Positions 24,745-30,331 of a stretch of DNA of 31,041 nt are shown piece by piece (position 1 is the stretch's first letter; the number at the start of each line of letters is the position of its first letter). A program made the translations under genes and the position numbers. Location of the stretch: the IMG/VR virus record IMGVR_UViG_3300048996_000101, positions 1 through 31,041 of that record. One strand, 5' to 3'. The DNA comes from a virus. The notes beneath the pieces were generated by a model, which had not been told where the DNA came from, searched no databases, and worked only from the letters and a program-made list of their open reading frames with translations.

Positions 24745-26262
24745 TTACAGGAACCGCATCCGAGGTACGGCTCCGGAGTAATACGCGAGAAGCAAGGCGT
24801 CCGCGTTGTCAGGAGAGCGCCCGTTCCGCTTGATGATGTCGTCCTTGGACTCCACCTGGATACGGCCCTTGGAGTCGAGGAACCAGCGGGGCCAGAGCAG
24901 CTGAGCGCAGGCGGAGTCGGCGTTCTCCATGTGGGACAGATCCCAGAATCCGGCGGCCGAATTCTCGCGGCCGATGTTCCACCACATCTCGGCGCGCAGG
25001 TTCACGAACTTCTTCTTGTCGCGCGGATTTGTCGACACGTTCACGCCGATGATCTGCGCGTGGTGCTCGCCGCGCTTGGCAGCGTTGCGCAGCTCGCCGA
25101 TCACGCCGAAACCCACGCCGATCGAGTCGATCTTCACGGCTGTGGCGCCGGACTGCCGAAGCGCCCTGAGGACCAGCGGGGCGATCTTCTCCGGTCGGTC
25201 GGTGCGGATGCGCCACTCGCGACCGGCGACCATGCCACGGCGTTCGCGGATGACGGTCTCGTCCTGGCCACCACCGACGTCCACGCCGAGTTCCACCGGC
25301 GAGAGAGCGGCGGGCGTGTACTTGGCCTCCGGGTCGATGCGGCAGGTGGCCACATCGGAGGCACGTACGACGGTGTCGGCCGCGTCGACCGAGAACTCAC
25401 CCAGCACCTTGCTGCGGTACAGGGCGTTGTCCTCGCCCCAGTCGGCCTTCTTCTCCTCGACCCATACCTCGGAGACAAGGGAAGCGGCCACGTCCTCCGT
25501 CACCGGCTCACCGGTGAAGTTGGGGGAGTCGAACGCAGAGATGCCCATCGTGTGCCAGCCGGATCCCGGCTGGCACACCTTGAAAAAGTGCGTCGCCGAG
25601 TTATCAGGGTTTCCGATGGCGAGCTGCCTGCAGTCAGGGCCGGTAGCCAGCGCGTCGGCCGCCACCCAGAGCTGCTCCGGGACGCCGCACGCCTCATCGA
25701 TGACGACGAGGACGAAGCGGTCGTGGATGCCCTGGAAAGAGCTGTCGTCGTGATCGGCAGGCTTACGGCCGAACGCGACGATTTCCTCGTCGATCAGCCA
25801 CTCGGTTTGATTGACGCGGCCGGGCAGCCCAGCCGCCTTGTGCATGCGGCGTACGTAGCGCCAGAGGATCGCGCGGACCTGCGCCGTGGTAGGCGCGGTG
25901 GTCACCACGAAGGCCTGACCCGGCGGGTGGGAGTCCAGCCACCAGGAGATCGTGAGCGCTGCGGTGTGCGACTTGCCGATGCCGTGGCAGGAGTGGACCG
26001 CCGTGCGGCGGTGATCCCTCACTGAGGTGAGGATGTCCTTCTGCTTGGACCAGATCGACTGACCCAGACGTTCGGCCACCCACAGCTCGGGGTCCGACAT
26101 GTACTTCGACTGGCGTTCCGCCGCGTGCTTTCGGTCGGCAGCAGCTTTGAGCTGGTCGCGGACCGTCTTGAGGCGCTTGGTGTCGCCCGTGCGTATGAGC
26201 TTCTCGACGAGTGCGGTGAGTGCGTCAACATCAAGACCGCCGAGGTCTGTTGGCGTTGTCAT
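24745..26262 (-). CDS. Terminase large subunit
   Basis: 505 residues. N-terminal ATPase: Walker-A variant SCHGIGKS at 91-98, Walker B VLVVIDEA at 184-191, and LAIGNPDNSATHF (motif III region) near 214-227. C-terminal RNase-H-like nuclease: acidic residues Asp328 in LGVDVGGG, Asp379 in KIDSIGVG and Asp near 488 in SPDNADALLLA. The enzyme packages concatemeric DNA through the portal and cuts it to length. Start ATG follows a 52-residue membrane gene by 5 nt. Confidence 0.95.
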   Translation of the reverse strand: MTTPTDLGGLDVDALTALVEKLIRTGDTKRLKTVRDQLKAAADRKHAAERQSKYMSDPELWVAERLGQSIWSKQKDILTSVRDHRRTAVHSCHGIGKSHTAALTISWWLDSHPPGQAFVVTTAPTTAQVRAILWRYVRRMHKAAGLPGRVNQTEWLIDEEIVAFGRKPADHDDSSFQGIHDRFVLVVIDEACGVPEQLWVAADALATGPDCRQLAIGNPDNSATHFFKVCQPGSGWHTMGISAFDSPNFTGEPVTEDVAASLVSEVWVEEKKADWGEDNALYRSKVLGEFSVDAADTVVRASDVATCRIDPEAKYTPAALSPVELGVDVGGGQDETVIRERRGMVAGREWRIRTDRPEKIAPLVLRALRQSGATAVKIDSIGVGFGVIGELRNAAKRGEHHAQIIGVNVSTNPRDKKKFVNLRAEMWWNIGRENSAAGFWDLSHMENADSACAQLLWPRWFLDSKGRIQVESKDDIIKRNGRSPDNADALLLAYYSGAVPRMRFL

Positions 26263-26267
26263 CGCAC

Positions 26268-26426
26268 CTACACGGACTGTGCTGCGTGCACCAGGAACGG
26301 GATCACGAACACGGTGAAGGCAGCTGCCAGCAGCCGCGTGCGATCCAGGGGAGGCAGCGGCGGTCCGGCCATGACAGCCAGAGTGCCGAAGACAACTGCC
26401 AGGAGATAGCAGATGAGTTCAAGCAT
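26268..26426 (-). CDS. Small membrane protein upstream of large terminase
   Basis: 52 residues, ATG at 26426 with GGAAG 5 nt upstream. I chose this start over a 57-residue longer frame, which lacks a ribosome site. Two hydrophobic helices: LICYLLAVVFGTLAVMAG (about 4-21) and LLAAAFTVFVIPFLVHAAQ (about 31-50). No family recognised. Ends 5 nt before the terminase start, so it is likely co-translated with it. Confidence 0.6.
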   Translation of the reverse strand: MLELICYLLAVVFGTLAVMAGPPLPPLDRTRLLAAAFTVFVIPFLVHAAQSV

Positions 26427-26536
26427 GTTCTTCCGCTTTCTGCTAGTCTTCGATCGCTTGCCAGTCGCGCGCCTTTCAAGCCACGTACGGGGAAGACACC
26501 GGGTCAACGGCTGCAGATCCGCCCCGCGAACCGGAG

Positions 26537-26562
26537 GGCTCGTTCTCAGCGAGAGCGAGCCG
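26537..26562. other. 11-bp hairpin in the leader of the plus-strand island
   Basis: GGCTCGTTCTC (26537-26547) pairs with GAGAGCGAGCC (26551-26561) around AGC, with one G-T pair. Lies in the non-coding 26427-26668 gap before the plus-strand terminator, so it may be part of a structured leader or small RNA. Confidence 0.5.
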
Positions 26563-26615
26563 GACCGTGGAGAGTCGAAGCAGCAGGGCACGGCCATTGC
26601 GAAAGCGCGACAGGG

Positions 26616-26900: not shown

Positions 26901-27227
26901 CTACATACAGGTGATGGGTGTGAGCCAGTGCATCGGCGGGTCGAACGCCAGAGGCGTCCTCATGAATTCGACGTACGCCTCGTCCGGGTTGTCCGGGTCG
27001 ACCATGATGCATCCGTCCTCAGCACGCTGGTACTGCTCGTACTGGATCTCCCAGGACCCGTCAGTTCTCTCACTGATCATCACCGTGGAAGCGGCGGGGA
27101 CACTGCCGGGTGCGACGCCGTTCAGCTTGAGCCAGGCTCGGATCTCCGACTTGCGGAAGTCCAGCATCTTCTTCCAGATCTGATCGTCCGTCACCACCCA
27201 GTGGGTGATGTGCTGGGTCGTGGTCAC
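26901..27227 (-). CDS. Hypothetical protein between the Acb2-like gene and the terminase
   Basis: 108 residues; GTG start at 27227 overlaps the preceding stop by GTGA. Helix-rich N-terminus (QIWKKMLDFRKSEIRAWLKL) then beta and acidic segment CIMVDPDNPDEAYVEFM; the ending MHWLTPITCM has one cysteine. No domain recognised. Belongs to the coupled set of small genes following the small terminase, which in phages often carry accessory or counter-defence functions. Confidence 0.6.
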   Translation of the reverse strand: MTTTQHITHWVVTDDQIWKKMLDFRKSEIRAWLKLNGVAPGSVPAASTVMISERTDGSWEIQYEQYQRAEDGCIMVDPDNPDEAYVEFMRTPLAFDPPMHWLTPITCM

Positions 27228-27499
27228 TGCGTGTCCATGGCGGATGGATCGTCGTCCTCGCGGAACGTGGCAGGAAGTACCAAAGCGGAGCGAACCGCGC
27301 AGTCTTTGGACTCCAGCAACTTTCGCAGGGCGACGGTCAGTTCGGGGGAGTCTGGAAGAAGTCGCAGCAGCACATCCGCTGTGATGGCGAAGTGGCGTGA
27401 GACCTGCTGGAGATGGTCCGGCAGGTGGTGGTAGTCGAAGTAGCCGTGCAGTCGCTGTACTTCAGGGTGGCGCTTGGACACCGGCAACTGATCCGTCAT
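27224..27499 (-). CDS. Acb2/Tad1-like hairpin-domain protein, candidate cyclic-nucleotide sponge
   Basis: 91 residues. ATG overlaps the upstream stop as ATGA; GGAGG lies about 10 nt upstream. Residues 21-27 FDYHHLP, then a helical hairpin at about 28-75 with the signature spacing RLLPDSPE (46-53) and ALRKLLE (57-63), ending in ASSR-like small residues. This follows the family layout known for Acb2 (anti-CBASS) and Tad1 (anti-Thoeris), small oligomers that sequester cyclic oligonucleotide or ADPR-derived signals and so block host defence. It departs in YHHLP where the family usually has YHPP. Small neighbours are coupled by 4-nt overlaps. Identity is inferred by pattern; binding is untested. 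Confidence 0.68.
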   Translation of the reverse strand: MTDQLPVSKRHPEVQRLHGYFDYHHLPDHLQQVSRHFAITADVLLRLLPDSPELTVALRKLLESKDCAVRSALVLPATFREDDDPSAMDTQ

Positions 27500-27801
27500 C
27501 CGACCCAGCCTCCCGCCGCGTTGATCCGCGTGGTGCGGTCCATCCGCTCGTACTTCTCGTCCGTGGTGTGGCCGTCCCAGCTCTCCAGCAGATCCGTGCG
27601 CACGTGGGTGAAGAGGTCCATGTCGCTCTCCGCGATGTGCCAGGTGACCTGACCGGTCGGCAGCGTGATGTACAGCACCGGCCAGCCCGGTGCATCCGGG
27701 TCGGCGCGGTACTGAAGGTGCGAGGGATACAGCGTCGCCAGCAGCGCCAGCAGGTGGGCGCGCTCCCGGTAGAGAGCGTCGAGCCAGGCCTCGTTACTCA
27801 T
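27496..27801 (-). CDS. Conserved hypothetical phage protein
   Basis: 101 residues. ATG at 27801 chosen over the GTG at 27810 because it gives an 8-nt overlap with the terminase small-subunit stop; either is possible. Sequence begins SNEAWLDALYRERAHLL, then a central TLPTGQVTWHIAESDMDLF and WDGHTTDEKYERM near the end. That last block recurs in many actinophages next to terminases; function unknown. Could assist packaging or modulate host factors. Stop overlaps the Acb2-like start by 4 nt. Confidence 0.65.
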   Translation of the reverse strand: MSNEAWLDALYRERAHLLALLATLYPSHLQYRADPDAPGWPVLYITLPTGQVTWHIAESDMDLFTHVRTDLLESWDGHTTDEKYERMDRTTRINAAGGWVG

Positions 27802-28378
27802 CGATGCCACCGACCCCGGTGAGTTCGCGCACGGAGTCGTCGGTCGCGTTGATCGCGGCGATGAGCTGTGCGATCTCGCCGCCCAGCTGGTCCGCCTCGA
27901 CGGACAGCCGCACCTGCGCGTCCAGACCCAGGTACTTCGCCCTGCGCTCCTTGATCTTCAGGATGCGGTCCAGGGCTTCCAGGACGAAACGTTCATCCTG
28001 GACGGTCTGGCCCTCGATCATGATCACGCGGCCCTGCTGCACGAGGACGTGCTCACGGCGCAGCGACTTCCACAGGTGGCGTTCCATCTCGTCCAGGGAC
28101 TGCAGTTCGCCGAGCCGCGTCTCATCCACCGTGAACCGGTAGACCGCCGTCAGCCCGCGCTGCACCGCCTTGGCCGCGCGCCGTGGGTCCGGCTCGCCGG
28201 TGAGGGAGTCGGTCAGGGACAGCAGCTGGGCTATCTCTTCGAGATCGTGGCCGACCGCTTTCAGCCGGGCCGCTTCCCGGTCGCGCTTCCAGGAGTGGTA
28301 ACGGGGGTGGCCTTCGGGCGCCTTGTCCGGGAAGAAGTCGTCGTCGCCCTCGAACGGGGCGGGGAGATTGTCGTCCAT
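27794..28378 (-). CDS. Terminase small subunit
   Basis: 194 residues, ATG with AGGGGC upstream. N-terminal helix-turn-helix-like segment (RLKAVGHDLEEIAQLL, AAKAVQRGLTAVYR), then a long helical region with RHLWKSLRREHVLVQQ and a C-terminal ERRAKYLGLDAQVRLSVEA. Fits actinophage small terminases, which bind cos or pac DNA and recruit the large subunit. First gene of the minus-strand structural operon; its leader contains a strong terminator. Ends by overlapping the next start. Confidence 0.75.
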   Translation of the reverse strand: MDDNLPAPFEGDDDFFPDKAPEGHPRYHSWKRDREAARLKAVGHDLEEIAQLLSLTDSLTGEPDPRRAAKAVQRGLTAVYRFTVDETRLGELQSLDEMERHLWKSLRREHVLVQQGRVIMIEGQTVQDERFVLEALDRILKIKERRAKYLGLDAQVRLSVEADQLGGEIAQLIAAINATDDSVRELTGVGGIDE

Positions 28379-28733: not shown

Positions 28734-29000
28734 GTGACTACTGAGATGGTTGACCTGGACGGCAATCCGATTCCTGTGGGGTTCGAGGCCCTGCTCAAGC
28801 CCGCCGAGGTCGCGCAGCTGATGCGTGTGGACCCCCGCACCGTCGCCAATTGGGCGAAGGAGGGCAAGCTGCGCTGCAGCCGCACGGCCGGTGGTCACCG
28901 GCGCTTTCCCGAGGACGCGGTGCGTGCCGCGCTGGCCGGTGACTGGGAGCGGGCCGCTCACGGCAAGCCCACGACCGACCTCATATTCGTCCCGGAGTGA
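28734..29000 (+). CDS. BldC-like MerR-family transcription regulator
   Basis: 88 residues, GTG with TTTGGAGAA upstream. HTH at about 20-48 (LLKPAEVAQLMRVDPRTVANW) and wing at 49-63 (TAGGHRRFPEDAV), almost matching BldC's pattern VDP-TV--WAK-GKL--RT-GGHRR. BldC is a small actinobacterial MerR-like protein that binds AT-rich direct repeats cooperatively. There is no effector-binding coiled coil, as in BldC. It heads the plus-strand early operon and may control itself or the divergent late operon. Stop overlaps the methyltransferase start by GTGA. Confidence 0.85.
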   Translation: MTTEMVDLDGNPIPVGFEALLKPAEVAQLMRVDPRTVANWAKEGKLRCSRTAGGHRRFPEDAVRAALAGDWERAAHGKPTTDLIFVPE

Positions 29001-29656
29001 CGCAGAAGCTCCCTCGGCTTCTTGATCTTTTCTGCGGACAGGGCGGCGCCGGTTGGGGATACCGCCTCGCGGGGTTCCACGTCACCGGTGTCGACGTAAG
29101 GCCGCAGCCACGGCATCCCCGGGAGATGGACTTCGTCCATGGGGATGCGCTGGAGTATCTCTACGCGCATGGACACGAGTACGACGTCATTCATGCCTCT
29201 CCGCCGTGCCGCGCCTACACCAAGGCACGGGGTGCGGCAACGGGCCGCTACCGGCATCCCGATCTGGTGAAGGATGTCCGCGCGGCGCTGGGTGCTATCG
29301 GCAGGCCCTGGGTCATCGAGAACGTTCCTGGGGCGCCGCTGCGCTGGCCTGTCGAGCTGTGCGGCACGATGTTCGGTCTGCCGATGTACCGCCACCGCCT
29401 CTTCGAGTTCCAGGACCCCTGGGTCGCCCACCCGGGCCATCCCGAGCACCGTGCGCGCGTCGCCAAGATGGGACGGCGCCCTGGGAAGGGTGAGTTCTGG
29501 TCGATCGCCGGGAACTTCTCCGGAGTGAAGGCGGCAGGTGAGGCGATGGGTATGCCGTGGGCGGATCAGGACGGTCTGCGTCAGGCCGTTCCGCCCGCGT
29601 ACACGCACTGGATCGGCGTCAACCTGCTGCAGCGCCAACTTGATGATGCCGCGTGA
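28997..29656 (+). CDS. Short DNA (cytosine-5) methyltransferase
   Basis: 219 residues, GTG overlapping the previous stop by 4 nt. Motif I LDLFCGQGGAGWGY (9-22), catalytic Cys71 in ASPPCRAYT (motif IV), ENV at 108-110 (motif VI), YRHR at 131-134 (motif VIII) and a motif-X-like AVPPAYTHWIG near the end. Only about 80 residues separate motifs VIII and X, so the target-recognition domain is small. The enzyme would methylate cytosine C5, probably to protect phage DNA from host restriction. It is compact but has all core motifs; specificity cannot be read. Confidence 0.9.
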   Translation: MTQKLPRLLDLFCGQGGAGWGYRLAGFHVTGVDVRPQPRHPREMDFVHGDALEYLYAHGHEYDVIHASPPCRAYTKARGAATGRYRHPDLVKDVRAALGAIGRPWVIENVPGAPLRWPVELCGTMFGLPMYRHRLFEFQDPWVAHPGHPEHRARVAKMGRRPGKGEFWSIAGNFSGVKAAGEAMGMPWADQDGLRQAVPPAYTHWIGVNLLQRQLDDAA

Positions 29657-29675: not shown

Positions 29676-30005
29676 ATGGCAATCACGAAAACTGCTGCCC
29701 GCAAGAGCGTGCCGTTGCACGCCAGCGACCTGCAAGAACTCCAGCGTGTGAGGCTCCACGGCAGCGACCAGGCCGTGGCCCTCCACGAACTCACCGGCGT
29801 CGAACTGGGGGAGCGGTCCTCCGAGTCCGAAGCTCTGCACGCCATCATCGAGGCCGGTCTCAAGGCCATCGCGGACAAGGCGCTGCAGATCGCCTACGCG
29901 CGCGCTGTCGAATTCGACCGGACCGACCCCGAACGACAGCAGTGGAAAAAGGCCATGCGCACCCGTCGTCTGCGCCCCTTCATGAGTGAGGCAGACGCCG
30001 CGTGA
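29676..30005 (+). CDS. Putative antitoxin (helical/RHH-like)
   Basis: 109 residues, ATG 6 nt after a -10 hexamer with no ribosome site (leaderless). N-terminus TKTAARKSVPLHASDLQEL, then a helical pair (SSESEALHAIIEAGLKAI and ADKALQIAYARAVEFDRTD) like an RHH or Phd-type dimer, and a basic tail (KKAMRTRRLRPFM). Position one base-coupled (GTGA) to a MazF-fold gene suggests an antitoxin that binds it and the shared promoter. No exact family recognised; could also be a small DNA-binding protein unrelated to toxins. Confidence 0.6.
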   Translation: MAITKTAARKSVPLHASDLQELQRVRLHGSDQAVALHELTGVELGERSSESEALHAIIEAGLKAIADKALQIAYARAVEFDRTDPERQQWKKAMRTRRLRPFMSEADAA

Positions 30006-30331
30006 GCATCATGGTTCCAGCTCAGCGTGCGCATATCTACCGGATCCAGTTCGACCCGGAGATCGCTGTACTCGGCCTCATCGTCTCTGCCGACTGGCTG
30101 AACGCCCAGAGCGACGAGTACATGGTCGCCCAGGTGACAGCCAGCGGCGCCGACCAGCGAGGAATGCCGGGATCGGTGCGTCTGACGTCAGGAGATCCTG
30201 CCTTCGGGTACATCGTGTGCCGCGACGTCGGGATGGTCGACCATGAAGAGGTGAAGGAAGACCTCGGCGAAGTTTCGATGGAGACCATGAACGAGGTCAG
30301 CAACGCACTGAAGCTGGTGCTGAGCCTATGA
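30002..30331 (+). CDS. MazF/PemK-like protein lacking the catalytic arginine
   Basis: 109 residues, GTG overlapping the previous stop. Order and spacing match MazF: HIYRIQFDPE (11-20), a strand LGLIVSADWLN (24-34), MVAQVTAS (41-48), SVRLTSG (58-64), YIVCRDVGMVD (70-80), and LGEVSMETMNEVSNALKLV (88-106). The Arg that follows the first strand in active MazF (as in RPVLVV) is replaced here by Val-Leu, while Thr46 or Ser48 can occupy the threonine site. It may be an inactive or repurposed toxin, or a growth inhibitor acting otherwise. Paired with the upstream helical gene. Confidence 0.68.
   Translation: MSIMVPAQRAHIYRIQFDPEIAVLGLIVSADWLNAQSDEYMVAQVTASGADQRGMPGSVRLTSGDPAFGYIVCRDVGMVDHEEVKEDLGEVSMETMNEVSNALKLVLSL

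Follow-up and report, generated by a model that had tools for sequence, protein, structure and literature searches.

Acb2 and Tad1 are phage 'sponge' proteins that sequester bacterial alarm molecules, and they demonstrate that one tiny hairpin is able to defeat both CBASS and Thoeris signalling. The known set of ligands for these proteins is 3',3'-cGAMP, cA3 and gcADPR. Acb2 binds cyclic di- and trinucleotides as a hexamer, and Tad1 sequesters gcADPR. The Acb2 protomer is made of one short N-terminal helix and two long antiparallel helices, while Tad1 has a four-stranded N-terminal antiparallel beta-sheet followed by two long helices (reviewed in PMC12043709). In the Acb2 of phage T4, mutation of Y8 disrupts dinucleotide binding (PMC12657218). 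PF24729, the Acb2/Tad1 hairpin family of Pfam, also includes a protein from Lactococcus phage 1706 and one from Mycobacterium phage Saintus, both in what is referred to here as the core branch.

Here we compare with these systems a 91-residue protein encoded in the window, which is the whole stretch of 31,041 bases of an IMG/VR virus record. A preliminary description of the sequence had called this protein a candidate Acb2/Tad1-like anti-CBASS or anti-Thoeris protein. Is it an Acb2, is it a Tad1, or is it something else built on the same hairpin? The resemblance is real, and it is highly probable that the protein represents a distant and previously unrecognised sister branch, homologous to the Acb2/Tad1 hairpin superfamily. 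An anti-CBASS or anti-Thoeris role is putative and rests on analogy with the characterised members.

The gene, its neighbours and its family

The gene begins with an ATG and lies on the minus strand at 27224-27499. The two terminase genes bracket it, the large subunit at 24745-26262 and what is probably the small subunit at 27794-28378. The order on the minus strand is that of an operon: the probable small subunit, a WDGH-domain protein (27496-27810; PF25311, E 1.9e-10), the 91-residue protein, a 108-residue protein of unknown function (26901-27227), a further small ORF (26268-26597) and the large subunit. The gene shares four bases with each of its two immediate neighbours. The large subunit is 39% identical to the Arthrobacter phage Amigo terminase; the small subunit matches PHROG 645, which carries the label RNase E, and is called a terminase by its position. 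In L002, the closest relative, the gene order is nearly the same but another small gene fills the WDGH slot. The 108-residue protein has a homologue at the same position in L002, and a scan for its relatives returned none.

In one other locus (L219), too, a WDGH gene comes immediately after a hairpin gene, and in Lactococcus phage 1706 a WDGH gene occurs along with a PF24729 gene; a literature search yielded no paper on the WDGH domain. On the plus strand of the window, opposite to the virion genes, a MerR/HTH_17 DNA-binding protein (28734-29000) overlaps a DNA methyltransferase (28997-29656; PHROG 363, E 5e-39). Also on the plus strand, a PemK/MazF-like toxin (30002-30331; E 9e-10) overlaps an upstream gene of 109 residues without a family match (29676-30005), which may encode its antitoxin.

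The 91-residue protein is a clear member of PHROG 5120 (E 5e-26) and PHROG 1761 (E 5e-23), neither of which has an assigned function in PHROG, and a literature search found no mention of either. By tblastn the family is present in 360 annotated phage records, from phages of Vibrio, Mycobacterium, Erwinia, Acinetobacter, Brevibacterium, Gordonia and other hosts, and among the matches listed nearly all are annotated as "hypothetical protein". A scan for the motif RKLLE[SA]KD confirmed the family on at least 593 IMG/VR contigs, and the motif also occurs on 35 bacterial or MAG contigs of many phyla. Comparison of the gene with its L002 counterpart over 66 aligned codons gave a dN of 0.18 and a dS of 0.91, a ratio of about 0.2, and the protein is therefore maintained by purifying selection. 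Because of the PHROG matches, the phage records, the motif-bearing contigs and this ratio, the ORF is a real gene rather than a chance reading frame.

The genomic settings of the family vary widely. In Vibrio phage martha 12B12 the gene is directly between the two terminase genes, in Gordonia phage Ruthy it is between head-tail connector genes, and in an Acinetobacter phage it is near virion genes. Other phages have it in blocks of small hypothetical genes, beside minor tail genes, between lysin domains, after the holin or adjoining replication genes. The small size of the gene and its scatter over unrelated phages and genome positions are like those of a counter-defence gene.

One contig has an additional gene in which two copies of the domain stand in tandem (L011, 454-888), and another has a second, diverged copy overlapping the end of the first (L024, 3989-4395), which suggests duplication and divergence within the PHROG 5120/1761 family. 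In Ochrobactrum phage OH a protein with an anti-TRAP domain annotation has the hairpin as its C-terminal part (L128, 765-1133, plus strand) and is possibly a zinc-finger fusion. On a further contig approximately 1.1 kb separates a PF24729 gene (L173, 1665-1922, plus strand; E 2.4e-9) from a member of the PHROG 5120/1761 family, and here the two branches are together in one local cluster.

Relationship to the Acb2/Tad1 hairpin superfamily

The sequence elements on which the original call was based are all present in the ORF: FDYHHLP at residues 21-27, LLPDSPE at 47-53 and ALRKLLE at 57-63. The HMM comparison proposed as a check came out negative, since the 91-residue protein has no match at E<1 to PF24729, where membership is set by the Pfam gathering cut-off of 27 bits. 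T4 Vs.4, an Acb2 used as the positive control, matched at E 7e-20 and 71 bits. Only one of 36 relatives of the protein reached PF24729 at E<1, with a best E of 0.11, and single-sequence searches of Pfam, NCBIfam and, by sequence, the PDB gave no match. Taken alone, these searches would have rejected the call.

Profiles built from the family gave a different result. With an earlier set of loci, the family HMM had only two matches outside the family, both weak (E 0.1) and both Acb2/Tad1 hairpin proteins, one from Lactococcus phage 1706 and the other from Mycobacterium phage Saintus. Sequences of the core branch were gathered with a consensus probe, and only the real sequences that it retrieved entered the alignments. 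The resulting consensus is FTYHxPKxxQ...IR..AKxLA..I....PxSREKSLALTKLEEAVMWANAxIARNE. Membership of the core in PF24729 was found by Pfam at E 1e-14, 3e-10 and 2e-27 and was verified also on two real proteins. Iterated searches merged the family with the core, and these were set aside because inclusion can drift; strict one-round profiles were used instead. A strict one-round HMM of 125 family members, searched against 17,010 ORFs, returned PF24729-core proteins as its first 12 outside matches (best E 7e-5). In the reverse search the family proteins rank right after one known PF24729 protein, alongside T4 Vs.4.

Direct comparison of the family and core profiles with hhalign gave P 3e-6, a probability of 88% and a score of 31.2, against a maximum of 17.6 for 100 column-shuffled decoys and 9.0 for the reversed profile; other alignments of the two gave P 7e-6. 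In a second calibration family against core scored 30.5, Acb2 against core 28.5 (17.0 with smaller Acb2 alignments), and nine unrelated families at most 13.5, and the family is therefore about as near to the core as Acb2 is. PHROG 1761 was in turn matched by 9 of 30 core proteins, with a best E of 1e-3. The core profile matches the solved structure 9ptq, 'Acb2 homolog 43' (six chains, 5.6e-9), and Tad1 structures (0.003), and through these matches the group as a whole is connected with sponges that have been studied by experiment. Compared directly with the Acb2 branch, the family gave P values of 0.09 and 0.045, within the range of the decoys, and at the level of sequence profiles its link to Acb2 appears only by way of the PF24729 core.

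The proposed two-helix hairpin was borne out by modelling. An AlphaFold2 model based on 36 relatives (mean pLDDT 86) is predicted to have one short helix at residues 12-19 (27443-27466), two long antiparallel helices at residues 28-47 (27359-27418) and 52-74 (27278-27346), and no strands. A model of a core protein has helices at 13-34 and 39-62, with a turn equal in length to that of the 91-residue protein. When the latter was searched against BFVD with Foldseek, its own relatives came first, followed, among the matches listed, by many named Acb2/Tad1 hairpin proteins, with E-values of 0.27 or worse to the Acb2/Tad1 models. In the other direction the core model retrieved family members from Ochrobactrum phage OH (0.9 A over 43 columns) and a Dinoroseobacter phage. 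Foldseek found no significant match to the 91-residue model in the PDB, and no Acb2 or Tad1 chain was among the matches listed by Foldseek or VIA-align, where unrelated helical bundles were at the top. This negative says little, because the core model run as a control reached Vs.4 and Acb2 at Z 7.0 and 6.5, likewise level with unrelated helical bundles.

Where in the superfamily does the protein belong? With the PF24729 core it shares the hairpin, in which a four-residue turn joins two long helices, and residues aligned in register by hhalign: the F-x-Y start, LA in helix 1, P-x-x-x-E at the turn and K-L in helix 2. It differs from the core in an N-terminal linker four residues shorter, in a serine in place of the core arginine, and in LE(A/S)KDxxVR in place of EEAVMWANAxIAR, and the Pfam model misses the family. 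With Acb2, as found in T4 (Vs.4) and Pseudomonas phage p26, it shares the layout of the protomer and the status of a small stand-alone phage protein, but it has neither the GYRDLS motif nor the lysine 15 residues after the tyrosine. Absence of that motif and the non-significant comparison with the Acb2 branch rule out Acb2 proper. The C-terminal helical hairpin of Tad1 is related to the PF24729 core, but the 91-residue protein is all-helical in its model, and identity with Tad1 is ruled out as the beta domain is missing. The part of the original call that stands is thus homology to the superfamily, through the profile comparisons, the reciprocal HMM searches, the fold and the Foldseek matches in both directions; the protein is neither Acb2 nor Tad1. 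It does fall inside PHROG 5120 and PHROG 1761, and the link between these PHROGs and Acb2/Tad1 is newly drawn here.

A changed pocket region and what it may bind

The FxYxHLP motif (residues 21-27, 27419-27439) aligns in hhalign with FxYHxP of the core. Across the shorter linker, Y23 is opposite the core tyrosine that matches the Acb2 pocket tyrosine; position 23 is tyrosine in 78% of the family and otherwise mostly phenylalanine or tryptophan. In all 19 aligned Acb2 sequences a lysine follows 15 residues after the tyrosine, and the core has a tyrosine and an invariant arginine at equal spacing. The invariant Acb2 lysine, K26 in PaMx33 numbering, lines the pocket. In the 91-residue protein this basic position is Ser34, in the first long helix, and it is serine in 98% of 125 family sequences. 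The third helix, where the core has EEAVMWANA, carries instead LE(A/S)KDxxVRA, and residues 59-70 (27290-27325) form the signature RKLLESKDCAVR. Over the 125 members R59, K60, L61, E63, K65, D66, V69 and R70 are each conserved in at least 96%, with R59, E63, K65, D66 and R70 at 98-99%.

A family that had merely lost its function would not retain such a stripe on helix 3, and the simplest reading, we infer, is a changed ligand or partner. By analogy with the characterised members, the short N-terminal helix and tight hairpin of this divergent branch would assemble, most likely, into a small oligomer, which would bind a nucleotide-derived host signal during infection without cleaving it and thereby withhold it from its effector. 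We regard a sponge function of this kind as an even proposition. The ligand or partner would probably lie outside the set of 3',3'-cGAMP, cA3 and gcADPR, or not be limited to it, because the core Arg/Lys has become a serine and helix 3 has gained an invariant charged stripe. More tentatively, the family may constitute a fourth branch of hairpin sponges, beside Acb2, Tad1 and the PF24729 core, that uses the invariant Arg/Glu/Lys/Asp/Arg face of helix 3 to read a host immune signal taken by none of the known sponges. To our knowledge few genes of the core branch have a tested function, and homology to the core is for this reason no proof of sponging by itself. Several features speak against a sponge: a position among late genes is not the first expectation for a counter-defence gene, the basic residue of the pocket region is altered, the linker is shorter, and MWAN is replaced by K-D-x-x-V-R.

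Loss of the basic pocket-region residue beside an invariant charged stripe on helix 3 would also fit a hairpin that has lost nucleotide binding and been repurposed to bind a host or phage protein through the R-E-K-D-R stripe, as an inhibitor, adaptor or regulator. A separate PF24729 match is present on 4 of 47 contigs with the PHROG 5120/1761 family, two of the four above the cut-off, and on none of 48 in the reverse count, both counts being few and from fragmentary contigs. The two branches may accordingly not be interchangeable, and this too would favour repurposing. An invariant charged helix face would, however, equally be expected of a new ligand pocket, and no partner gene travels consistently with the family; we consider repurposing somewhat unlikely.

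An accessory role in packaging or assembly is less probable again. It is suggested by the position between the terminase subunits, here and in L002, and by the settings in Vibrio phage martha 12B12, Gordonia phage Ruthy and the Acinetobacter phage, but elsewhere the gene adjoins holin/endolysin or replication genes or is in blocks of small hypothetical genes, and it is carried by unrelated phages. Convergence is most improbable: helical hairpins are common and the Foldseek E-values and PDB search gave nothing significant, yet the profile scores hold against shuffled and unrelated-family controls, the HMM searches are reciprocal, and the residues shared with the core are in register.

The 91-residue protein is best classified in a sister branch of the superfamily, outside both Acb2 and Tad1. 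Hundreds of "hypothetical" members, from phages of actinobacteria, proteobacteria and other phyla, are now tied, with controls, to the Acb2/Tad1 superfamily. They offer many candidates whose pocket is altered, and so pose a direct question: which signal do they bind? A new specificity, if true, would indicate a host immune messenger that is not yet known.
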